DNA of 64,000 nucleotides from Bacteroidota bacterium (GTDB lineage: Bacteria > Bacteroidota > Bacteroidia > Cytophagales > Cyclobacteriaceae): the NCBI GenBank assembly GCA_018266055.1, contig JAFDYT010000005.1, positions 496,001 through 560,000 on the forward strand. The letters are read 5' to 3'. Below, in pieces: positions 19,273-28,815 of this stretch. The notes under the pieces are model-generated. The model saw nothing but the letters and a program-made list of their open reading frames with translations. It did not search any database and had not been told where the DNA came from. The position numbers and the translations under genes were made by a program. Within the stretch, counting starts at the first letter, position 1, and each line of letters starts with the position of its first letter.

Positions 19273-20073
19273 ATGTGGCCAATCGGTTTACTTATCATTC
19301 TATTCTGTTCGCTTTGTGTTGCCGTTGTTTTCATACTACGGCTTACTAAAGAGAAGGGAAATTTGAGTAAAGAAAATAAAAAGTTTTCTGCCCAGGTGCA
19401 GGAAAGAGATGCTCTTTTAGAAAAACTAAAGGAGCATCGGGAGAGTTCGTTGCGCCTTGTGCAACAGACCATTCTCAATGAAAGAACAAGGATTGCTCAT
19501 GAGCTTCATGACGACACCATTCAGCGGTTAATAGCCATTCGGTTTCGACTCGAAAAGATTACCTGGTATCCATTGCGGTCAGAAGTGGAACGAGAGATTA
19601 ATCAACTGCGGCAGGAGATTACGGACATTGTGAAAGAGACTCGGCTGTTGATTTACAATGAAGTGCAGACCCACTTTGAAAACGACAGCTTTTCTACACT
19701 CCTTGAAGCACTGGTGGGGAAATTCAGCCCGATGGTGTTGCCAAAACTTTCCTTCACCCAAATTCAAGCAGAAAAGGAGTTTTCTCTTCCTCCGGCAATT
19801 AAGAAAGACCTCTATTATATAGTGCAGGAGACTGTTCACAATTCAATCAAGCACTCCGCAGCCACCGAGTTGCTCCTTGAAACCTCATGGGACGATGCGC
19901 TGACCATCCGTATCACCGACAATGGGATTGGCTTTTTGCCTTCCGATAAAGGAGGAGTAGGGAATCGCACGATTCAGTTTCGTGCAGAGAACATTGGAGC
20001 TACGATTGAACGAATCAAAAAAATTGGTGGCGCTCAGGTACAAATCAGGCTCCCCCGTAAGCAGTATTTTTAA
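19273..20073 (+). CDS. NarL-type sensor histidine kinase
   Basis: 266 residues: one N-terminal membrane helix, a coiled coil, a HisKA_3 domain with H-box (RIAHELHDDTIQRL) and a HATPase domain (DNGIGF). There is no periplasmic sensing domain. The gene is convergent with the LuxR-type response regulator gene and the stop codons overlap by about four bases. HisKA_3 kinases normally pair with LuxR-type regulators, so the two probably form a two-component system controlling the neighbouring RiPP-like cluster (inference). A TAnnTTTG-like box (TATTTTCG) lies just before the start. Confidence 0.88.
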   Translation: MWPIGLLIILFCSLCVAVVFILRLTKEKGNLSKENKKFSAQVQERDALLEKLKEHRESSLRLVQQTILNERTRIAHELHDDTIQRLIAIRFRLEKITWYPLRSEVEREINQLRQEITDIVKETRLLIYNEVQTHFENDSFSTLLEALVGKFSPMVLPKLSFTQIQAEKEFSLPPAIKKDLYYIVQETVHNSIKHSAATELLLETSWDDALTIRITDNGIGFLPSDKGGVGNRTIQFRAENIGATIERIKKIGGAQVQIRLPRKQYF

Positions 20074-20729
20074 AGCAGCCCGTTGCGGTGCATGTAGGCA
20101 ATGAGTTCAGGAGAATTCCTGGTTTCCGTTTTTCGCAAAAGCTCCTTCCGGTAATCTTCTACAGTAGCTGGACTCAACTTCAATTCTTCAGCGATTTCTT
20201 TGGTGACCTTCCCTTTGCTCAGTAATTGCATGATTTCTTTTTCCCGTTTGCTGAATGCCACCGAGGAGAACTGTAGTAGGTCGATTTTTCTCAGGTCTAT
20301 TAAAATGTCTTCAGAGTAAAAAGTCTCTCCACCAAGTATTGTTTGAACACAAACGCGAATATCGTCTGCACCTGTGGTCTGCTTTAATAATATCCCGTTA
20401 GGTTTTATGCTTAGAAGCTCTTTTAATGTAGCGGTTTCATGAAAGCTGGTCATGGCTACAATTTTTAAGGCAGGATAATTTTTCCTTAATGCCTGCATTA
20501 AGACCACACCGCTAATGCCGGGCATGCGCGCGTCAACGAGGGCAATTTGAACTGAATTTGATTTTATTTTGTCAATCGCAACTTCTCCAGAGTAGGCGGA
20601 GAATACTTTGCTTACAAGGTTTGTTTTTTCGATTAAGGCTGCTATGCTATCACAAATTAATTTGTGATCGTCCACAACCAAAACATTACTTTTTTGCTGC
20701 ACAAAATAATTTTTACAAATAACCCCCAT
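20070..20729 (-). CDS. LuxR-type response regulator
   Basis: 219 residues from ATG 20729; a TTG four codons earlier is possible but less likely. The receiver domain shows VLVVDDH, the phospho-acceptor Asp in ALVDARMPG and the conserved MTSF, and the C-terminus a GerE/LuxR helix-turn-helix (LSKGKVTKEIAEELKLSPATVE). It is divergent from the precursor peptide genes and has a GC-rich palindrome within 15-45 bp upstream of its start. The same palindrome recurs upstream of the pseudo-radical SAM operon, so this is the best candidate for the cluster's regulator. Confidence 0.9.
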   Translation of the reverse strand: MGVICKNYFVQQKSNVLVVDDHKLICDSIAALIEKTNLVSKVFSAYSGEVAIDKIKSNSVQIALVDARMPGISGVVLMQALRKNYPALKIVAMTSFHETATLKELLSIKPNGILLKQTTGADDIRVCVQTILGGETFYSEDILIDLRKIDLLQFSSVAFSKREKEIMQLLSKGKVTKEIAEELKLSPATVEDYRKELLRKTETRNSPELIAYMHRNGLL

Positions 20730-20739
20730 TTTCAGGGTC
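20721..20739. promoter_or_regulatory. Weaker third copy of the cluster palindrome
   Basis: AACCCCCATTTTCAGGGTC resembles the reverse complement of the two stronger sites (ACCCCCATAAAC.GGGG), with only a three-base right arm. It covers the start codon of the response regulator, a position suited to autoregulation. Confidence 0.35.
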
Positions 20740-20743
20740 AAAG

Positions 20744-20771
20744 CAACCCCCTGTTTATGGGGGTTTGATTG
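20744..20771. promoter_or_regulatory. GC-rich palindromic operator, site 1
   Basis: Arms AACCCCC and GGGGGTT around the spacer TGTTTAT, followed by TTGATTG. It lies between the response regulator (start 20729, minus) and precursor gene 1 (start 20833, plus). The same sequence with few changes lies upstream of the pseudo-radical SAM operon at 28786-28815. On the plus strand the spacer supplies a possible -33 box (TTTA) 19 bp before ATACTTTG at 20777-20784, an imperfect TAnnTTTG box, so a bound regulator would sit on the promoter. It could also act as an RNA hairpin. Confidence 0.65.
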
Positions 20772-20832
20772 ACAGGATACTTTGGTATTGTCATCTTTAA
20801 GAAAGTAAGCAAAACTTAAAAATTTAAATCCT

Positions 20833-21000
20833 ATGGAAAAAACAAATCAAAAAAACGTTCCTCAGACGGAGTTGGAAAACTCAAATGAAGATCAAAAACT
20901 CGAATTATTTCAAGTGGAAGAACTTGAAGAAAGATTTGAGTTGGCTACTTGGATCGGCACATTAAATGGTGGTTGCAACTCTAGCTGTGGAGCAAGTTAA
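20833..21000 (+). CDS. RiPP precursor peptide 1
   Basis: A 55-residue peptide. The N-terminal ~38 residues are acidic and contain LELFQVEELEERFELA, which precursor 2 shares almost residue for residue, as expected for a leader recognised by a common RRE/PqqD-like domain. The C-terminal 17 residues (TWIGTLNGGCNSSCGAS) form the probable core, with Trp, two Cys, Gly-Gly and several Ser. It is the first gene of the cluster, 11 bp before precursor 2 and upstream of a protease with a PqqD-like domain and a radical SAM/SPASM enzyme. It is missing from gene calls with a 60-codon cut-off. Confidence 0.85.
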   Translation: MEKTNQKNVPQTELENSNEDQKLELFQVEELEERFELATWIGTLNGGCNSSCGAS

Positions 21001-21011
21001 AGGTTTGACAC

Positions 21012-21155
21012 ATGGAAACATTTGAAAAAGAGTCCAATGATCAGATTCTCGAGCAAGAGAAGTTTGATCTTTTTCAGATTGACGAGCTCGAAGACCGTTT
21101 TGAGCTGGCGTCACATGCCTGGGTTAATGTTGACATTCAATGCAATATTAGCTGA
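21012..21155 (+). CDS. RiPP precursor peptide 2
   Basis: A 47-residue peptide. It shares the leader motif with precursor 1 (here FDLFQIDELEDRFELA) and ends in a different core, SHAWVNVDIQCNIS. Common points of the two cores are a Trp soon after the leader and Cys-Asn-x-Ser near the C-terminus, while precursor 1 has an extra Cys. Conserved leader with variable core is the hallmark of RiPP precursors. It is followed by a hairpin and then the modification genes, so precursors may be made in excess over enzymes. Confidence 0.85.
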   Translation: METFEKESNDQILEQEKFDLFQIDELEDRFELASHAWVNVDIQCNIS

Positions 21156-21177
21156 TTTCTAGACGTAGTAGCGTTTA

Positions 21178-21215
21178 TAAAAATCCACTTTTAAAAGGTG
21201 GATTTTTATTTTTTG
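21178..21215 (+). terminator. Hairpin with T-tract between precursors and enzymes
   Basis: A 10-bp stem AAAAATCCAC/GTGGATTTTT with a TTTTAAAAG loop, followed by ATTTTTT. It lies 23 bp after precursor 2 and ends 21 bp before the next gene. It looks like a partial terminator that lets some transcripts continue into the modification genes. Confidence 0.75.
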
Positions 21216-21235
21216 ATAAATAAAGCAGCAGTGGT

Positions 21236-23224
21236 ATGAAAGATTTGTTTTCGAAGCGAAAAAAAGAGTTCCAATTCTACATTAAAAAACTGCCTTTAAG
21301 TCCAAAGTATAAGGACTATTTGATTGACAATGACTTTATTGAAAATAATCTTCATATCTATCTTTTTTATCCTGAAGTCTTTTCCGGTGTTTTTATTTCT
21401 AAAAAGAACAAACAACTAATCCAGCGCGTAAAACATTTGAACATTTCCGGCTACCTTTTTTACCGGTCAATGCTTGAAATTGATAAATCGGTAGATCAGA
21501 TGAATACGGGCAAAAGAAAAAAAATTGAGAGTCATTATTTGCCGATTTTGAGTAGCCTTTGTCAGGAAGAGAGTATAAAACTGTTAACCACTGTTTTTCC
21601 TATTAAGTCGGCTTTTTGGAATTTTTGGGCTAAGCGTCGGGAAGAATATCTGACTGCGTTATCAATTGATAAAGGAAAATCGACAATCCAATTGCTTTCA
21701 GATTATGAAACGTACGCGGATTACAAATCGGCTTTTGGAAAAATCGCTATCGATTCTGTATTCGTCTTATCGGGCAGGAAAAGCAAGCGTTCCTATCAGG
21801 CACTATTACAATCGCACAAATATTTTTCTACTGCGTTACAGCTTCTTGACGATCTATTGGATTTTCGTGAGGACTTGATTCATCCTCAATTTAATTTTGG
21901 GCTGTTCTTACTTCGTCAACGGCTGAGTGAAAAAGCAATCGATGCCAGCTCGCTCGACAACGATACGTTATCAAAGCACCTCTACCTTCAGGGTGTGGCA
22001 GAAGAGATGATTCTGCTCGCGCTGAATTATTTTAAAAAATCCATGGATGCTGTTACCGGTTTTGATCTTGCGTTTTGGAACGAAGCTCACGTACAAAAAA
22101 TAAGATCTGCGGACACAATCCTCACGCACATCCGATCCTATAATGCTACTATTCATGCGAAGGTGGTTCTTTCTAAGCGCCTGTTTAGTGATGCCGGTAA
22201 AACTGGTGACATGTCCGAGCAATTAAAACTTTCTCTTGGGTTTATTCAAAAAAATCAAAACGAAGATGGAAGCTGGAATGATTTTCAAAATCGCGCCGGC
22301 ATTAGCAATGTATGGTCAACGGGGTTCATCCTTAGCAATCTTTTAAACGTCGCCGCCGTTTCGCCAGACGCTATTAACCGCAGTGTGGGCTTTCTTAAAC
22401 AAAACAAGAAGGATGGAATGTGGGGATACAATTCAGGTTGGATTCCTGACATTGACTCCAGCACATTCGTTTTATTAGCGCTTTCTATGGCCCAGCACTC
22501 TTTGCCTAAGGAACTACCGCAATGGGAAGGCTATCAAAAAAGAAACGGTGGCTTCAGTACCTATATGGACAAAAAAGCACTGGTGGAAGCACTTGACTTT
22601 CAATATAAGGATGTTACCGGATGGACACAGAGTCATTCCTGCGTAAGTAGTGCAGCCTTTTATTTTTTGTCAAAGTGCGGTTTGACGGGCAATACCTCTC
22701 ATAAGAAGGCACTTAAATATATTTTATCAATTCAGTCGGCAAATCACCTTTGGCCAAGTTACTGGTGGACCTCGCCGGTCTACTCTACTTCATATGCCTT
22801 ACGAGGTTTGATTCACTCTGGATATTCAGCAGATACGGATATTGTTTTTGGTTCCTTAAATGCGTTGGCCCATCGTCAGAATGAAGATGGTAGTTTTTCC
22901 ACCGAGCTTAATGAGAAGAGCGCATTTTTTACGGCATTGGCGCTGAGTGCATTTACTTCGTCTAAGCAGATAGCGAATCTCTTTAAGGAAAGTGCAAAAT
23001 CTGCCGCGAGCTGGCTCCTGCATTCGCAATATGATGACGGGTCTTTTCCGTCAAGCTACTGCCTGCAAATTCCTGACGCCAGCATATGTGATACCGGGCA
23101 GGTGCAACGCTGGGAAAAATCAACCGCTCAATCTACCAACATCGTTATTGATGACTTTATGCGTTTGTTTTCAACCTCTGTCGCCATCCAGGCTTTATCC
23201 TCCTACCGATCACTTCATAATTAA
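21236..23224 (+). CDS. Two-domain class I isoprenoid synthase-like / squalene-cyclase-like protein
   Basis: 662 residues. The N-terminal ~300 are all-helical and show Asp-rich motifs in the style of class I prenyl/terpene synthases: D83-KSV-D87 and, more clearly, LQLLDDLLDFRED with DDLLD at 205-209. Residues ~325-660 are an alpha/alpha barrel of squalene-hopene cyclase/prenyltransferase type with QW-like repeats QNEDGSW (341), KKDGMWG (391), QNEDGSF (548) and QYDDGSF (598). At the class II DxDDTA position it has D405-I-D407-S-S-T, so the central acid is kept but the last Asp is Ser. It follows the precursors and overlaps the protease gene by one base (TAATG). It may make or attach a terpenoid group or act as a LanC-like toroid; function unproven. 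Confidence 0.7.
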   Translation: MKDLFSKRKKEFQFYIKKLPLSPKYKDYLIDNDFIENNLHIYLFYPEVFSGVFISKKNKQLIQRVKHLNISGYLFYRSMLEIDKSVDQMNTGKRKKIESHYLPILSSLCQEESIKLLTTVFPIKSAFWNFWAKRREEYLTALSIDKGKSTIQLLSDYETYADYKSAFGKIAIDSVFVLSGRKSKRSYQALLQSHKYFSTALQLLDDLLDFREDLIHPQFNFGLFLLRQRLSEKAIDASSLDNDTLSKHLYLQGVAEEMILLALNYFKKSMDAVTGFDLAFWNEAHVQKIRSADTILTHIRSYNATIHAKVVLSKRLFSDAGKTGDMSEQLKLSLGFIQKNQNEDGSWNDFQNRAGISNVWSTGFILSNLLNVAAVSPDAINRSVGFLKQNKKDGMWGYNSGWIPDIDSSTFVLLALSMAQHSLPKELPQWEGYQKRNGGFSTYMDKKALVEALDFQYKDVTGWTQSHSCVSSAAFYFLSKCGLTGNTSHKKALKYILSIQSANHLWPSYWWTSPVYSTSYALRGLIHSGYSADTDIVFGSLNALAHRQNEDGSFSTELNEKSAFFTALALSAFTSSKQIANLFKESAKSAASWLLHSQYDDGSFPSSYCLQIPDASICDTGQVQRWEKSTAQSTNIVIDDFMRLFSTSVAIQALSSYRSLHN

Positions 23225-24453
23225 TGAGCAGAACAATGAGTGAAGTAGCGTTTAATACCATTGTTCCTAGCCTGCCTACTTCGATTGAGTTACTCCCGTT
23301 CGATAAAGATTCATTTTTAATGGTCGATTCTGCCATAGATCGAAAATTGCTTATCAACGAGCTTACAAAAGAGTTGATCATTTTGATTGATGGAAAAAAA
23401 AATATCAAGGATATAACGTCCCAATTAATTAAACAGGGCAGACAGATCGATGAAATTCAAGTCTTTAATACAGTAAAAAACCTGGAGAGTTTTGGCCTGA
23501 CGAATGGGGAGGGCGTACAGAAGAAAAATAAGCCAAAGTACCTCACGCTTAGTACGGTGTTGATCAAAGAAAAATATGTTTCGCTTGTAAGCGGCTGGCT
23601 GAAATTTCTTTTTCACCCGAAAGTATTTTGGAGCGTACTCCTTGCTGCAATCTTATTACTTGCCTTTCTTTTCGTACGGGATTTAACCTGGAGCGGAATT
23701 TATGATTCAATTCAGCCGGAGTTGTTCTTGCCCCTGGCTATCACTTTTTTCATTTCATTGCTGCTGCATGAACTTGGTCATGCCACAGCCTGCCGCTATC
23801 ATGGCTCAAAGCATGGCGCTATTGGTTTTGGCTTTTACTTGTTTACACCGGTTTTCTATGCCGATGTCAGTGACGCATGGAAGCTAAAATCTCATCAACG
23901 GGTGATTATTGACCTCGCAGGAATTTTTATGGAGACATTGTTTAGCCTGATGCTTGCCATTGCAAGCTATATACTTTCCGAACCGACTTTGCTTTTGATT
24001 GGTTTCATGATTATCCTCAACACGCTTAAGAACCTCAATCCCTTTTTGCGATTTGACGCCTACTGGGTGCTCTCCGACTTATTAAATATCCCTAACCTAC
24101 GACAGAAGTCGAACTCAAAGTTGATTGACACAATGAAGTGGTTAGTGGCCCGAGCCTCAAATCCATTAAAAACTTCAAAAGACTATTTTCTTGCAGGCTA
24201 CGCATTCGTGAGTTTTTCGTTGATGATCGCCTTTCTCGTAGCGATTTTACTCTTTAACCCGAATTCGGTACTGCATTTTCCATCCAACTTCGCATTGTTC
24301 GTTTCTGAAATTTATAACCATGGAAAGAGCTTGTCATTCGTATGGTATAAAAACAGTATCCTCACGATGCTCATGCCTATTTCATTTTATGTTTTGCTGC
24401 TCACCATTTTAATTAAAAACCGGACTGCTTTGGCAAAGATGCTTAATTACTAA
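23224..24453 (+). CDS. PqqD-like domain fused to M50 membrane protease
   Basis: 409 residues. The first ~95 resemble a PqqD/RRE domain (DRKLLINELTKELIILIDGKKNIKDI), the fold that binds RiPP leaders. The rest is a site-2-protease-type M50 domain with the zinc motif H182-E-L-G-H186 and the third ligand Asp278 in NPFLRFDAYWVLSDLL, plus about six membrane helices. The layout resembles the YydH-type 'peptide zinc metalloprotease' of epipeptide clusters. Likely role: capture the leader, cut the modified peptide within the membrane and aid its release (inference). The start overlaps the previous stop (TAATG), indicating translational coupling; an alternative ATG lies four codons later. Confidence 0.82.
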   Translation: MSRTMSEVAFNTIVPSLPTSIELLPFDKDSFLMVDSAIDRKLLINELTKELIILIDGKKNIKDITSQLIKQGRQIDEIQVFNTVKNLESFGLTNGEGVQKKNKPKYLTLSTVLIKEKYVSLVSGWLKFLFHPKVFWSVLLAAILLLAFLFVRDLTWSGIYDSIQPELFLPLAITFFISLLLHELGHATACRYHGSKHGAIGFGFYLFTPVFYADVSDAWKLKSHQRVIIDLAGIFMETLFSLMLAIASYILSEPTLLLIGFMIILNTLKNLNPFLRFDAYWVLSDLLNIPNLRQKSNSKLIDTMKWLVARASNPLKTSKDYFLAGYAFVSFSLMIAFLVAILLFNPNSVLHFPSNFALFVSEIYNHGKSLSFVWYKNSILTMLMPISFYVLLLTILIKNRTALAKMLNY

Positions 24454-24462
24454 AATCATAAT

Positions 24463-25812
24463 ATGAAATATAAATTATCTCGCTACACCGTCACTGCGCC
24501 TTGTCCAGATAACAATAATAAATCAATTCTCTATTCCACACGATCGGGGAAAATGCTTGTGGTCACGAATAACTGCATTGATTTTATTCATGAATCAAAA
24601 ATTCACTTAATGCCGCCTTCGATCGTCGAACGACTGGTCACAATTAAAGCCCTTGTGCCTGTCGATGAAGACGAGATTTCACTCGTGATTGCGGAAAACA
24701 ATGAGGAAATAGAAAGAGAGGATACGCTATACGAAGTCATACAGCCTTCCTCCAACTGTCAATTGGGGTGTTATTATTGTGGACAAAAACATGAAAAAGG
24801 AGAGATTTCTTCTGAGCAATATGAAAAAATTTTGGCTCGGATTCGCGAAAAAGCAAAAGCCAGAAACTATAGCCGAATGAAAATTGGTTGGTTTGGAGCC
24901 GAGCCACTTATGGCGGTGAAAACAATGCGAGACCTCACTGTAGGACTCAAAAAGATTGCAGCGGAATGTAACATTCCATATAGTGCCAAAATAGTAACTA
25001 ACGGACTTAGCCTCAAGCCCTCGATCTTCAAAGAATTAATTGAGACCCTGAGTGTTAAATCCGTAGAAATAACTCTTGATGGAACGCAGGAATTTCACGA
25101 TCAACACAGGTATACCAAACAAAATGAGCGATCCTTTGACTTAATATTCTCTAATCTAACCTCTATTCTCAATGCCCCGGATTATGATCCCTCGAAGTGC
25201 GCTGTATCGATCCGATGCAATGTTGATAACAAAAATCACGAGGGGGTAATACCTCTACTACAGCTATTGGCGGACAACAACCTGCAAAAGAAAATTACAT
25301 TTTATACCATTGGAATATATTCTTGGGGAAACGATGCGCACAAAGGTTCACTGACAAAAGAGGAGTTTGCAAAAAAAGAAATCACGTGGTTGTCGGAAAT
25401 GTTACGCCTTGGCTTTGAGCCAAGAATTATTCCCAAACGAGTGAAGCAAGTATGTTTGGCAGTATCTAAGACTTCGGAGATGTATGATGCTAAAGGGAAT
25501 ATCTTTAATTGCACAGAGGTTTCCTATGTGCCCGCTTATCAGGATTCACCATATGCATTGGGAAATGTGTCGCAGGATGAACCTAGCCCTATAAAAGAGC
25601 GCCCATTATCTAAATGGAACGAAGAAGTTTTAAATAACAAGTTCCCTTGCCACGATTGCAGAATGCTTCCGGTATGCGGTGGCGCCTGTCCAAAATCCTG
25701 GCACGAAGACATGAGAGCATGCCCGAGTGCGAAATTTAATATTGAGGATAGATTAAAGCTTACTTATATTTCAGCAAAAAAAGAGCCTGTGCTTGTTCAA
25801 AATCATAACTGA
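24463..25812 (+). CDS. Radical SAM/SPASM peptide maturase
   Basis: 449 residues. An ~85-residue N-terminal extension precedes the radical SAM motif C99-x3-C103-x2-C106 (CQLGCYYC); GWFGAEPL is the GGEP-like SAM site. The C-terminus is a Cys-rich SPASM domain (CLAVSK, FNCTEV, CHDCRMLPVCGGACP, ACPSAK) for two auxiliary 4Fe-4S clusters. Such enzymes make thioether, C-C or epimer modifications on RiPP cores. The N-terminal extension aligns with that of the pseudo-radical SAM protein at 27652-28737 (ILYSTRSGKMLVV against LLFSTRTGKGLIV). The gene starts 9 bp after the protease gene. Exact chemistry cannot be read from the sequence. Confidence 0.88.
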   Translation: MKYKLSRYTVTAPCPDNNNKSILYSTRSGKMLVVTNNCIDFIHESKIHLMPPSIVERLVTIKALVPVDEDEISLVIAENNEEIEREDTLYEVIQPSSNCQLGCYYCGQKHEKGEISSEQYEKILARIREKAKARNYSRMKIGWFGAEPLMAVKTMRDLTVGLKKIAAECNIPYSAKIVTNGLSLKPSIFKELIETLSVKSVEITLDGTQEFHDQHRYTKQNERSFDLIFSNLTSILNAPDYDPSKCAVSIRCNVDNKNHEGVIPLLQLLADNNLQKKITFYTIGIYSWGNDAHKGSLTKEEFAKKEITWLSEMLRLGFEPRIIPKRVKQVCLAVSKTSEMYDAKGNIFNCTEVSYVPAYQDSPYALGNVSQDEPSPIKERPLSKWNEEVLNNKFPCHDCRMLPVCGGACPKSWHEDMRACPSAKFNIEDRLKLTYISAKKEPVLVQNHN

Positions 25813-25815
25813 CTT

Positions 25816-26661
25816 ATGCGTATTTATTTCACCTTGGCTGCAGTTTATCTCTTCCAATCGGGCTTGTGGGCTCAGTTGTTAACTGGAAAAATAATGGATG
25901 CCGAGACGCATAAGCCTTTGAGCTATGTGAACATTGGAATTCCAGGAAAAGACAAGGGCACGGTAGCCAATCCAGACGGAACATTTCGTTTGTATATCCC
26001 TGCTGAAAACAGTTCAGATTCATTGCGATTTTCCCTCATTGGCTACGCCAGTTATTCGGTAATGATTAATAGTCTTCTGGCGAAAACAGGGCCTTCGGAT
26101 AAAATCATTTACATGAAACCCAAGGTCACTGAATTAAAGGAAGTGACAGTAACTCCAGGTAACTACGATAAAGAAACCATCGGTAGCACCAAGCGATCGC
26201 TGTTGCTCAGGATGGGAATAGGTCCCGACAGTATTGGCTCTGAGATGGGTACAGTAATAAGAGTAAAGCACAAGCCAAGTCTTATAGAATCGGCAACTTT
26301 TAACATCCAGACGAATAACTACACGAAGAAAATTAAGCTCAGATTAAACTTTTATCAATTGAATAAGGATGTCCCTGGGGCCAGCCTTTTGCAGCGACCG
26401 ATTTATATAGAGACTTCGTTAAAAAAGGGTTCCTGGAAAGTGGATTTGACAGAATACAACATAGAGGTAAACGATGATTTTTTTATGGCGCTTGAATATG
26501 TAGAAAACCTGGGGTATCAGGGATTGTACTTTCATTGTGGCTATAATAAAGTGCCCACGTATTTCAAAACTACAAGTCAGTCCACATGGAAATTGTTCAC
26601 TAATGGGGGCAAATACATTTCTCCCAACTTCACGGCTGAAGTATCGTTTGCTAAGCAGTAA
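25816..26661 (+). CDS. CarboxypepD_reg-domain envelope protein at the end of the RiPP operon
   Basis: 281 residues with a signal peptide (to about LWAQ) and an N-terminal CarboxypepD_reg-like beta domain (GKIMDAETHKPLSYVNIGI, GTVANPDGTFRLYI), as found at the front of TonB-dependent receptors. The remainder is a beta-rich domain of unknown family, and no barrel follows. It starts 3 bp after the radical SAM stop, so it belongs to the operon. It may be a periplasmic or surface protein for export, immunity or sensing (inference). Its 3' end overlaps the convergent helical-repeat gene by 11 bp. Confidence 0.75.
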   Translation: MRIYFTLAAVYLFQSGLWAQLLTGKIMDAETHKPLSYVNIGIPGKDKGTVANPDGTFRLYIPAENSSDSLRFSLIGYASYSVMINSLLAKTGPSDKIIYMKPKVTELKEVTVTPGNYDKETIGSTKRSLLLRMGIGPDSIGSEMGTVIRVKHKPSLIESATFNIQTNNYTKKIKLRLNFYQLNKDVPGASLLQRPIYIETSLKKGSWKVDLTEYNIEVNDDFFMALEYVENLGYQGLYFHCGYNKVPTYFKTTSQSTWKLFTNGGKYISPNFTAEVSFAKQ

Positions 26662-27628
26662 TAGTCGGTATCGGATTAGAAATACGTGTAAGCTTAGTGG
26701 AGGAATATACGTTTAGGGCCTCTTCAATTTGGTGATCCTTTATTGCATTTACGATATCGTTAACAAGGCTTTGCTTAAAAAAATCAAAGTACTTGGGTTC
26801 TTGTTTTAGAAAAAGCAAGGCTTCATCACAAAACGAATTGTAATTGTTTTTGTAATAAAACCGCTTAATCAGTAACCACCTGTGAATGCTATGTTCATCG
26901 CGTGTATATGGAGTGAAGTTGTCTATAAGCCCCCCAAAAATAGCTTCGAAGTTATTTTTTCTATCCGGTTCAGTGTTTGATAACCTATCCCAAATTAAAT
27001 GTACTTCATGAATCACCTGCATGATCATGGCCGACTTCAATTCCCGCGGGACAATGTCTAAAAGTTCATCGTTCCATCGGCCAGGAAAAGAGTTCGGTTG
27101 ATCTTTAATCATTATATATCGTAAGGTCTCGTTCGATGCAGTCATCGCTTCCGCTAATTCGTTTCGCCGAAACAGAACTCTGCATACGTTGTGCATTTGT
27201 TGAATTCGGTGATAATGAAAAATAGAATAGCCATACCCTTCAAGCTTTTCTCCAACAGTCAAAGCCTCACGTGTGGTCAGAAGCGCCTTTTCGTAGAGTA
27301 ATTCTTTGTAGTACAAATAAGCTTTAGCGGGTAAGGCAAAGGCTATTACAAGTAGTCCTTCTTCATCATTTAATCCTGAGACCATTCGGTCAGCCTCTGT
27401 GGCAAGTTGCCATGCAAGATGGATTCTTCCTTTCCTTGCTTCGGCTACAATATTCTGATATTTGCCAATCAAGAATTTTATCCATCGTACCTTCTCAGCA
27501 TTGTTCCTTTCGTTCATTTGATCCGTGAGGATCTTGCTCCAAATACCCTCTGCGCTGACCAAATCAATATTTGGAGAAGTATCTAAGTCTACTATTGATT
27601 TATATAACTGAGCGATATCCATATTCAT
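26651..27628 (-). CDS. Helical-repeat (TPR-like) protein of the RiPP cluster
   Basis: 325 residues, soluble, almost all alpha-helical, with paired-helix stretches (GLLVIAFALPAKAYLYYKEL, NVCRVLFRRNELAEAMTASN) that look like diverged tetratricopeptide repeats. No catalytic motif is visible. It lies 23 bp downstream of the pseudo-radical SAM gene in the same operon and converges on the main operon. A scaffold or partner role in the modification complex is a guess from position. Confidence 0.65.
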   Translation of the reverse strand: MNMDIAQLYKSIVDLDTSPNIDLVSAEGIWSKILTDQMNERNNAEKVRWIKFLIGKYQNIVAEARKGRIHLAWQLATEADRMVSGLNDEEGLLVIAFALPAKAYLYYKELLYEKALLTTREALTVGEKLEGYGYSIFHYHRIQQMHNVCRVLFRRNELAEAMTASNETLRYIMIKDQPNSFPGRWNDELLDIVPRELKSAMIMQVIHEVHLIWDRLSNTEPDRKNNFEAIFGGLIDNFTPYTRDEHSIHRWLLIKRFYYKNNYNSFCDEALLFLKQEPKYFDFFKQSLVNDIVNAIKDHQIEEALNVYSSTKLTRISNPIPTITA

Positions 27629-27651
27629 TCGCCATTGATTCGTTGATTGAT

Positions 27652-28737
27652 TCAGTTTTTATTATAGGCCAAAGCGACTCGATCTCCCAAATTGTGTCGA
27701 AATGAAGGGCAAAGGCTGTCCCCAAATGCTGCCCATAGTTCCGTTCTAACTCCACAAAGTGGAAAAACGGAACAAGAAGCGCATGGCACATTTAGTTTAT
27801 ACAATTGAGACTCATCAGAAAATTCATACATGAATAGAGACTTGATGGGGTAGCCTGTGGCTATTCCGCATCCGATATTGGATGTTCCTTGAATGCCAGG
27901 TAATAGGTTGGGTATTGAAGTGTTGTCAAAACCAAGTTTTTTTAGATGAAGTAGTAATTGTAGTTCCAAATTGGCATAGACTGATTTATTAAGTTTTTTC
28001 CCTGACGAAAACGTAATGGAGTACTTTGCTTTATTTTTTTTTGACAGATCGGTTAAAAAATCAAACACATTCTCTGATTGAAGTTCGTCAAGAATGATGT
28101 TCAACAGCACATGTTTACCCAAACTCAAAAAAGAATTTAGATCATCAATGCTCTCCCTGACCTTGTCCAGATTGTTACTTTTTGCATTGATCCGAAGTTT
28201 AACAATATTTTCTGTTGCCCATTGTGTAATATCACTCAGATATTGAATACTACATTCAAGTGAAAATGAGCATTTCATTTTTTTTATACTGGCGCTTTCT
28301 TTCAGAATTTTTTGGATGAGGTCAAGATCAATTATTCGGGGTGAAGACTCGTTGCAATCAAAGTTGACATGCGCTGACTTGTACGACTCTGCCCGTAAAA
28401 GTTCATCAAATTCTCCCTGTACATCATAAGGTTTAATCTGATTCATGTTTACGCTTAAGTTGAGATCGGCTTGATCTTTATAAAGCGCTTTTTTTCTACC
28501 TAATACAATATCAAATTCATCTTCATCATCATGGACAATGATTTCATAACTGGAAAGTTTTAAAAAAACATTCATAGGAATTTCTGAGAAATCCTTGTTT
28601 GTAATCTTTTGGATTAGAAAATTACTGACAATTAAACCCTTGCCTGTTCTAGTGGAGAAGAGCAGCCTTTTGTCACTTGGTGCAGACTCATTTTTGGCGC
28701 TAGATGAAACAACATACGCTGACATTTTGTAATTCAT
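27652..28737 (-). CDS. Pseudo-radical SAM protein with SPASM-like C-terminus
   Basis: 361 residues from ATG 28737. The N-terminus (MNYKMSAYVV, LLFSTRTGKGLIVSN) and C-terminus (CASCSVFPLCG, SLCPSFRHN, DRVALAYNKN) align with those of the maturase at 24463-25812. The middle lacks any CxxxCxxC: where the maturase has CQLGCYYC this protein reads through NMNQIKPYDV with no cysteine. It is therefore a radical SAM homologue that kept the SPASM part but cannot bind the SAM-linked cluster. Comparable pseudo-rSAM partners are known in Bacteroidota GG-type peptide systems (recollection). Possible role: substrate binding or auxiliary-cluster partner of the active enzyme. Confidence 0.8.
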   Translation of the reverse strand: MNYKMSAYVVSSSAKNESAPSDKRLLFSTRTGKGLIVSNFLIQKITNKDFSEIPMNVFLKLSSYEIIVHDDEDEFDIVLGRKKALYKDQADLNLSVNMNQIKPYDVQGEFDELLRAESYKSAHVNFDCNESSPRIIDLDLIQKILKESASIKKMKCSFSLECSIQYLSDITQWATENIVKLRINAKSNNLDKVRESIDDLNSFLSLGKHVLLNIILDELQSENVFDFLTDLSKKNKAKYSITFSSGKKLNKSVYANLELQLLLHLKKLGFDNTSIPNLLPGIQGTSNIGCGIATGYPIKSLFMYEFSDESQLYKLNVPCASCSVFPLCGVRTELWAAFGDSLCPSFRHNLGDRVALAYNKN

Positions 28738-28785
28738 AGATAACGACAATAATTATAGCAATGAACTCTCATTTTTCGAGTAAAT

Positions 28786-28815
28786 CAATCCCCAGTTTAT
28801 GGGGGTGGTGATTGG
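28786..28815. promoter_or_regulatory. GC-rich palindromic operator, site 2
   Basis: CAATCCCCAGTTTATGGGGG followed by TGGTGATTGG, 48 bp upstream of the pseudo-radical SAM start. It matches site 1 (20744-20771) over arms, spacer GTTTATGGGGG and the trailing TGATTG. Two such similar sites flanking both operons suggest one regulon. Confidence 0.65.

Follow-up and report, generated by a model that had tools for sequence, protein, structure and literature searches.

Among the enzymes that mature ribosomally synthesised and post-translationally modified peptides (RiPPs), fusions of a prenyltransferase resembling trans-isoprenyl diphosphate synthases (trans-IDS) with a terpene cyclase domain have already been described, as in ChrPC, whose P domain prenylates an internal tryptophan with C10-C20 donors and whose C domain cyclises the attached chain (PMC13290415). 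According to the same source, NctPC joins an alpha-beta-beta-alpha prenyltransferase to an MstE-like cyclase and transfers geranylgeranyl to a peptide tryptophan prior to cyclisation, and ComQ also prenylates the tryptophan of a peptide (PMC13290415). Regarding proteolysis, the M50 protein EpeP is thought both to cleave and to export its peptide (PMC10885120). Here we describe a related gene cluster within 64,000 nucleotides of contig JAFDYT010000005.1 (assembly GCA_018266055.1) from a member of the Bacteroidota, family Cyclobacteriaceae; this whole stretch is called the window, and its positions serve as coordinates (Table 1). Two precursor peptides with a common leader are followed there by a prenyltransferase-cyclase protein (TC), an M50 protease fused to a RiPP recognition element (RRE), a radical S-adenosylmethionine (SAM)/SPASM maturase and a CarboxypepD_reg-domain protein, with a helical protein and a pseudo-radical-SAM protein facing them. 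From comparison of sequences, the cluster probably encodes a RiPP pathway that places a polycyclic terpenoid on tryptophan and, in the variant of the window, makes a second modification with the radical SAM enzyme.

An earlier note, made from the letters of the DNA, had proposed a RiPP-type locus here, and leader-sharing precursors, an RRE-M50 protein and co-occurrence in other genomes bear this out. Every open reading frame (ORF) that it listed was found in its place, and Pfam and NCBIfam matches back the enzyme assignments, with no Pfam match up to E 0.1 for the precursors, the helical protein and the pseudo-radical-SAM protein. Established at the level of sequence are the co-occurrence, the domain identities, the intact active sites, the tryptophan in every counted core and the shared element upstream of the two operons.

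The 662-residue TC carries most of the argument. Judged by sequence and predicted model, it is a fusion of two terpenoid enzymes, with a weak but consistent trans-IDS-like match in its N-terminal domain and an MstE-like class II cyclase behind it, so that the class I plus class II nature first suggested for it has been sustained by domain matches and by active-site aspartates invariant in 37 of 37 members. The C-terminal half matches the MstE profile at 1.8e-50 over positions 311-642. A Foldseek search with the model (predicted local distance difference test, pLDDT, 84.9; predicted template modelling score, pTM, 0.55) placed MstE and similar short single-domain cyclases at ranks 1-12, squalene-hopene cyclase-type enzymes also matching the C-terminal part, and the prenyl diphosphate synthase 3aq0 at rank 50 (E 1.5e-4). 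Throughout the 37 TCs of at least 600 residues, that of the window included, residues D83, D87, K164, D205, D206, D209, D213, D405, D407, W463, W510 and Y516 are invariant, and the first motif reads DxxxD rather than DDxxD in most members. Shorter TC rows (L026, L049, L069, L074 and both halves of the first L035 copy) lie outside these active-site counts. Ordinary trans-IDS also carry FQxxDD, and hence Q202, which lies upstream of DDxxD in 33 of the 37, was not counted as evidence for tryptophan recognition. Proteins matching only the N-terminal prenyltransferase domain of the TC were also seen (L013, L014, L015, L016 and L017, open frames of 303-505 residues), which may be stand-alone peptide prenyltransferases.

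The precursors point to the substrate. Both share the leader LFQ(V/I)(E/D)ELE(E/D)RFELA, and they prove genuine: a profile built from seven peptides finds only these two in their own genome, and it matched none of 4895 residue-shuffled short ORFs at E<1, against 69 real ones at E<1e-4 (the seven seeds and duplicates included). The 63 precursors from 34 loci gave 57 distinct cores, all of them with tryptophan, which in 50 lies at most five residues from the leader motif; with two further loci, L112 and L113, tryptophan is present in 59 of 59 distinct cores. The 57 do not count two precursors that depart from the strict motif, the L069 precursor and one of the L050 pair; both carry tryptophan after the leader. 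With this residue and the architecture of the TC taken together, the terpenoid-modified peptide suggested in the earlier note is the best reading, the TC probably attaching an isoprenoid chain to tryptophan and folding it into rings; by comparison with known enzymes, this tryptophan-terpenoid step is well supported. In L039 (9276-9841), near-identical precursor copies stand in tandem, three in that locus and five related ones in L036, as in peptide-gene amplification.

The third common component is the M50 protein, whose model has an N-terminal domain of three strands and three helices. Foldseek returned with this model the RRE of TbiB1 bound to its leader as top match and a site-2 protease as second (probability 1.0), and the protein probably serves leader recognition and cleavage, as far as sequence and model can tell. 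It does not reach the curated NCBIfam cut-offs of either daptide_HExxH (137.3 bits, cut-off 300) or the epipeptide model YydH/LiaK (67.8 bits, cut-off 225). Longer M50 proteins of about 690 residues occur in L023 (11396-13480), L036 (11899-13968) and L039 (11922-13991), and the additional C-terminal portion of the L023 protein contains a CPHC motif, which suggests thiol handling of cysteine-containing cores.

Searches with the TC matched 14 of the 295 genomes from the window's own taxonomic family (nine over both domains and five in the N-terminal part only), 11 of 395 across the phylum and 4 of 58 in the genus, the own genome included each time, and no match came from a plasmid collection. 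Contigs of named genomes gave 28 TC loci, among them Flavobacterium, Tenacibaculum, Aquimarina, Mucilaginibacter, Pedobacter, Hymenobacter, Chryseobacterium (whose locus L048 belongs to the TC family, and for which the 'Chr' of ChrPC may stand), Gracilimonas and Parachryseolinea, with P. silvisoli being a member of the window's own family. Before counting, duplicates were dropped (L021, L022, L028, L029 and L073, from the same genomes as L041, L030, L031, L054 and L051, and L114, equal to L043), together with L027 (no TC) and L057 (a 69-residue fragment); the N-terminal-only matches, namely G344, G516 and G671 of the 11 phylum genomes and the five of the same-family search, were not scored as loci. 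The resulting 38 loci comprise 35 with an M50 gene, 35 with a precursor and 19 with a CarboxypepD_reg relative. Both L112 and L113 have M50 and precursor, L112 also a CarboxypepD_reg relative, which brings the set to 40 loci of Bacteroidota and Balneolota, 37 with a leader-sharing precursor and 37 with an RRE-fused M50. The genome-neighbourhood check proposed at the outset thus came out in favour of a family whose genes co-occur in many genomes. In two Flavobacterium species, tandem TC/M50 sets accompany separate precursor groups (L033, 8406-18195; L035, 8412-18165), the first TC of L035 being split into two ORFs.

A radical SAM gene of the window type stands beside the TC in only six of the 40 loci (window, L041, L037, L048, L071 and L113, the last 53% identical). 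The common core consists of TC, M50 protein and precursor, with the radical SAM gene as an option, and the earlier note had placed its emphasis the other way round. In the five members aligned, window included, neither the motif C99xxxC103xxC106 nor the SPASM cysteines vary. Models of Cys-rich, CefB and Clo7bot maturases match best, and that of the PapB ranthipeptide maturase follows at a lower rank; TIGR04463 scored 189.4 bits and did not reach its cut-off of 525, and among the matches listed only the general SPASM domain exceeded its own. The pseudo-radical-SAM protein lacks CxxxCxxC and keeps a CxxCxxxxxCG...CP tail in three of five members (window, L041 and L037), only the N-terminal part remaining in L048 and L071. 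Together with the helical protein, it accompanies the radical SAM gene in five of the six loci (window, L041, L037, L048 and L071). Between the radical SAM and pseudo-radical-SAM genes, three loci harbour a cytochrome P450 gene (L041, 17004-18224; L048, 14550-15743; L071, 5108-6301), and the window cluster has none.

In the TC tree, a single clade of the six radical-SAM loci was tried and rejected by the approximately unbiased test (p-AU 2.8e-73), with the TC of L113 grouping with the Hymenobacter/Pedobacter type and the other five elsewhere; an earlier tree without L113 had the five on one side of an unsupported branch (67/23). As the six are not one TC clade, the pairing either arose on several occasions or is ancient and has frequently been lost. 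The tree needs three changes, which may also be one gain followed by losses and do not prove separate gains, and the radical SAM tree gives little resolution, a clade of five not being rejected there (p-AU 0.217). Two distant TC lineages show the pairing, and Balneolaceae show it once more with another radical SAM protein, of 534-541 residues, encoded upstream of the precursor (L051 and L075, whose two cores both contain cysteine). Judged from these trees and gene neighbourhoods, the association of radical SAM enzyme and TC is not a chance neighbourhood within one lineage. A profile of the radical SAM enzyme matched 4 of 395 genomes of the class and a single-protein search 3 of 295 of the family, the own genome included in both.

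Among the matches with no TC nearby, locus L105 (9282-13670) has a radical SAM gene (40% identical), an M50 gene and three precursors, and no TC. Its leaders are similar and score weakly with the precursor profile (E 5e-4, 0.017 and 0.022), and its cores keep the cysteines, with phenylalanine in the position of tryptophan in two of three otherwise similar cores. It is one locus, and it suggests from its sequence that tryptophan goes with the TC and cysteine with the radical SAM enzyme. A homologous locus without the terpenoid gene had been named beforehand as an observation that would refute the cluster; L105 is such a locus, and it agrees with a modular arrangement and is no refutation. A 327-residue protein with no Pfam match occupies the place of the TC there, perhaps for another kind of modification. 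In L106 (7051-10821), a radical SAM protein 53% identical to that of the window is encoded beside a C39-peptidase ATP-binding cassette (ABC) exporter, and the contig ends next to the radical SAM gene, with no precursor seen.

Compared with the described systems, the TC has the two-domain order of ChrPC, a trans-IDS-like prenyltransferase and a cyclase, and likewise goes with a tryptophan-bearing precursor; it shares with NctPC the MstE-like C-terminal domain and the expected prenylation of tryptophan with subsequent cyclisation, whereas the prenyltransferase fold differs; and, like the enzymes of the ComQ-ComX (Bacillus) and PalQ (Paenibacillus) systems, for which the account consulted describes no fused cyclase, it would be a trans-IDS-like enzyme acting on a peptide tryptophan (PMC13290415). 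The epipeptide (YydF/EpeX) and daptide clusters use, as far as their description goes, an M50-type intramembrane maturation protease as the window does, although the window protein stays below both curated cut-offs. Epipeptide clusters also carry a radical SAM gene. To our knowledge, neither epipeptide nor daptide clusters contain a terpenoid enzyme, and we know of no RRE-M50 protease or radical SAM enzyme in the ComQ-ComX and PalQ systems. The maturases of the TIGR04463, CefB, Clo7bot and PapB type have the same radical SAM plus SPASM architecture, but the window protein falls below the family cut-offs and its partner enzymes differ; with ranthipeptide and sactipeptide maturases it shares the intact CxxxCxxC and SPASM cysteines, a thioether itself being a prediction. 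Altogether, 'undescribed' is not a fitting word for the cluster as a whole, as PC-type maturases such as ChrPC have been described (PMC13290415). The terpenoid peptide enzymes are of this known kind; the novelty, as far as the description of the ChrPC enzyme goes, seems to lie in the additional radical SAM/SPASM enzyme, in five loci with the pseudo-radical-SAM and helical proteins. A literature search for a cluster of this make-up brought up only a review, prenyltransferase papers and unrelated papers.

Several observations weigh against this interpretation. By profile, the N-terminal half of the TC resembles trans-isoprenyl synthases weakly (positions 131-208; 4lob 0.0014, 4jxy 0.0038, 5h9d 0.0098), the class II acid motif is DxDS and not DxDD (30 DxDS, 6 DxDD and 1 DxDT among the 37), and the likeness to ChrPC and ComQ is one of published descriptions (PMC13290415) and not of compared sequences. 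The Foldseek E-values of the M50 protein are just 4.5e-3 and 7.1e-3. Three of the 38 loci have no precursor (L043, L054 and L074) and three no M50 gene (L049, L069 and L074); most of these are short contigs or partial TCs, yet L069 lacks M50 despite 9 kb upstream. In four radical-SAM loci (L037, L041, L048 and L071), 18-36 residues separate the leader from the tryptophan, which is preceded there by cysteine (CW or CSW), so that the geometry of the site differs. Neither pseudo-enzyme nor helical protein was found in L113, which does have the radical SAM gene. Two loci, L105 and L027, have the radical SAM protein away from a TC; the examined stretch of L027 begins at the contig start, and L027 has another kind of cysteine-containing peptide. 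Finally, cysteine occurs in 7 of 7 distinct cores of the six radical-SAM loci, and it is also common, in 25 of 50 cores, among loci whose examined stretch yielded no radical SAM gene; the core of L047 reads WIC...C with no such gene found in its stretch, and the link is statistically weak (Fisher p 0.027 for 6 of 6 versus 24 of 49, uncorrected for kinship).

This frequency of cysteine elsewhere would agree with a radical SAM enzyme that modifies a residue other than cysteine, for instance by epimerisation or by a C-C bond at tryptophan, with the cysteines kept for purposes such as disulfides. The CPHC motif of the long L023 protease and the diversity of the model matches, of which those listed fall below cut-off save the general SPASM domain, are in line with it. 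We nevertheless regard a non-cysteine target as rather doubtful, as the best matches are the maturases named above and every core that goes with a radical SAM enzyme has cysteine, that of L113 as many as eight. Radical SAM action at nearby cysteines is plausible from the sequences, and a doubly modified RiPP, with a terpenoid on tryptophan and a radical-SAM cysteine crosslink guided by the conserved pseudo-radical-SAM/helical adaptor pair, is a tentative proposal to which we give slightly less than an even chance. A locus in decay, with the pseudo-radical-SAM protein as its symptom, might be suspected from the lost cluster motif and the shortened forms in three relatives; we consider it very improbable, since five of six radical-SAM loci, drawn from several families, keep the pseudo-enzyme beside the helical protein, and in the window the remaining cluster genes are intact ORFs.

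As to the TC, both of its active sites are intact and bifunctional class I plus class II terpene synthases exist, so it might make a free terpenoid such as a diterpenoid diphosphate product, the peptide genes being mere neighbours or serving another purpose. Such a role appears improbable next to the leader-sharing precursor near the TC in nearly all loci, the tryptophan of all 59 cores and the described enzyme class of the same architecture that acts on peptide tryptophan (PMC13290415); moreover, a GKxxRP-like motif for binding isopentenyl diphosphate (IPP) was not found in the first 120 residues of the 37 TCs, in a search that had no positive control. A ComQXPA-like pheromone, that is, a prenylated tryptophan peptide sensed by an adjoining histidine kinase and NarL/LuxR-type regulator, would accord with the activity of ComQ (PMC13290415) and with the genes directly upstream of the precursors, which encode a HisKA_3 histidine kinase (19273-20073) and, at 20070-20741, a GerE/LuxR-domain response regulator. 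Such a pair is reminiscent of ComP/ComA. Relatives of the regulator lie near the TC in L041 (28% identical), L113 (24%, directly upstream of the TC), L042 and L047, so that three of the six radical-SAM loci have one when the window is counted. However, single-sequence blastp found no relative of the kinase in the other loci and none of the regulator in most, and regulators of this kind are common, 18 of 58 congeners, the own genome among them, having one at E 1e-30 (51% identity for the best of the others). The pair was considered as a fixed part of the cluster and was not upheld as such, and we find the pheromone unlikely, even if a signalling role is compatible with the proposed chemistry and would not exclude it.

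For the substrates, the order of the steps, the chemistry, the export and the biological role of the favoured pathway, that of a terpenoid-bearing RiPP, we infer the following picture. The leader FxVEELExRxE at the N terminus of both precursors, with its short core behind, would probably be bound by the winged-helix RRE of the M50 fusion protein, and perhaps by the N-terminal domains of the radical SAM enzyme and the pseudo-radical-SAM protein as well. In the N-terminal domain of the TC, D83xxxD87 would bind a C10-C20 allylic diphosphate for transfer to the core tryptophan, and, on the model of ChrPC and ComQ, the indole rather than IPP would lie opposite the D205-D206-xx-D209 region; the MstE-like domain would then protonate the chain through D405xD407 and cyclise it. 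The radical SAM/SPASM enzyme would modify the cysteine-containing part, most likely to a cysteine thioether, and the pseudo-radical-SAM and helical proteins may act as substrate adaptor or scaffold. Leader removal, and perhaps release of the peptide, would fall to the M50 intramembrane protease; this would explain why the cluster has no dedicated exporter, and the precedent of EpeP offers such an exit route from the cell without an ABC exporter (PMC10885120). If the leader were cut after FEL, the calculated masses of the unmodified cores would be 1697.71 Da for peptide 1 and 1655.77 Da for peptide 2.

Both operons may be switched by one regulator at a shared palindrome, AACCCCC-N7-GGGGGTT, of which a near copy lies at the far end of the cluster. 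The 17-mer CCCCNGTTTATGGGGGT has, with up to two mismatches, exactly two copies in the 4,792,828 bases of the genome, and a control pattern has none. The single palindrome seen to bracket the cluster is therefore a real element with one copy upstream of each operon; it brackets the cluster because the operons converge, and it is best read as one operator used twice. The palindromes were also considered as ends of a mobile element and rejected, the 17-mer occurring upstream of the two operons and nowhere else in the genome within two mismatches. The stem-loop between precursors and TC is probably an attenuator or partial terminator, to judge from its sequence, and by separating them it would favour expression of the precursors over that of the enzymes. 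The CarboxypepD_reg protein is probably exported, given its signal-like N terminus. The GC content of the cluster (39.5%, against 44.8% for the window) and its patchy occurrence in the genus are compatible with horizontal gain.

Table 1. Features of the cluster in window coordinates.
Feature	Position	Strand	Description	Basis
Operator-like site 1, upstream of precursor operon	20721..20765		17-mer at 20748-20764, inner inverted repeat at 20745-20765	inverted and direct repeat, two 17-mer copies per genome
Precursor peptide 1	20833..21000	+	55 aa, core ...ATWIGTLNGGCNSSCGAS	
Precursor peptide 2	21012..21155	+	47 aa, core ...ASHAWVNVDIQCNIS	
Inverted repeat able to form a stem-loop, between precursors and enzymes	21177..21209	+	16-nt arms, 94% complementary	
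TC, predicted bifunctional PC-type maturase (N-terminal prenyltransferase, C-terminal class II terpene cyclase)	21236..23224	+	662 aa	Pfam, MstE profile match, model and Foldseek, invariant Asp
RRE-fused M50 site-2-type protease	23224..24453	+	409 aa	Pfam M50, model and Foldseek
Radical SAM/SPASM maturase	24463..25812	+	449 aa	Pfam Radical_SAM, TIGR04463 below cut-off, alignment
CarboxypepD_reg-domain protein	25816..26661	+	281 aa	Pfam
Helical protein of the radical-SAM module	26651..27628	-	325 aa	homologues adjoin the pseudo-enzyme in L041, L037, L048 and L071
Pseudo-radical-SAM protein	27652..28737	-	361 aa from ATG (alternative: 28749 from TTG)	five-member alignment, weak matches to radical SAM profiles
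Operator-like site 2, upstream of pseudo-radical-SAM operon	28790..28806			

Peptides bearing polycyclic isoprenoids have become known very recently: PMC13290415, a review of 2026, cites a paper of 2024 (Hubrich et al.) for them. With 40 loci that have a recognisable leader and tryptophan in every counted core, the reach of this chemistry becomes directly testable. If the proposed pathway is true, the radical-SAM variant would bring together, on a single short peptide, two chemistries that change its structure, and it offers a clean case for asking what role a retained pseudo-radical-SAM protein plays.

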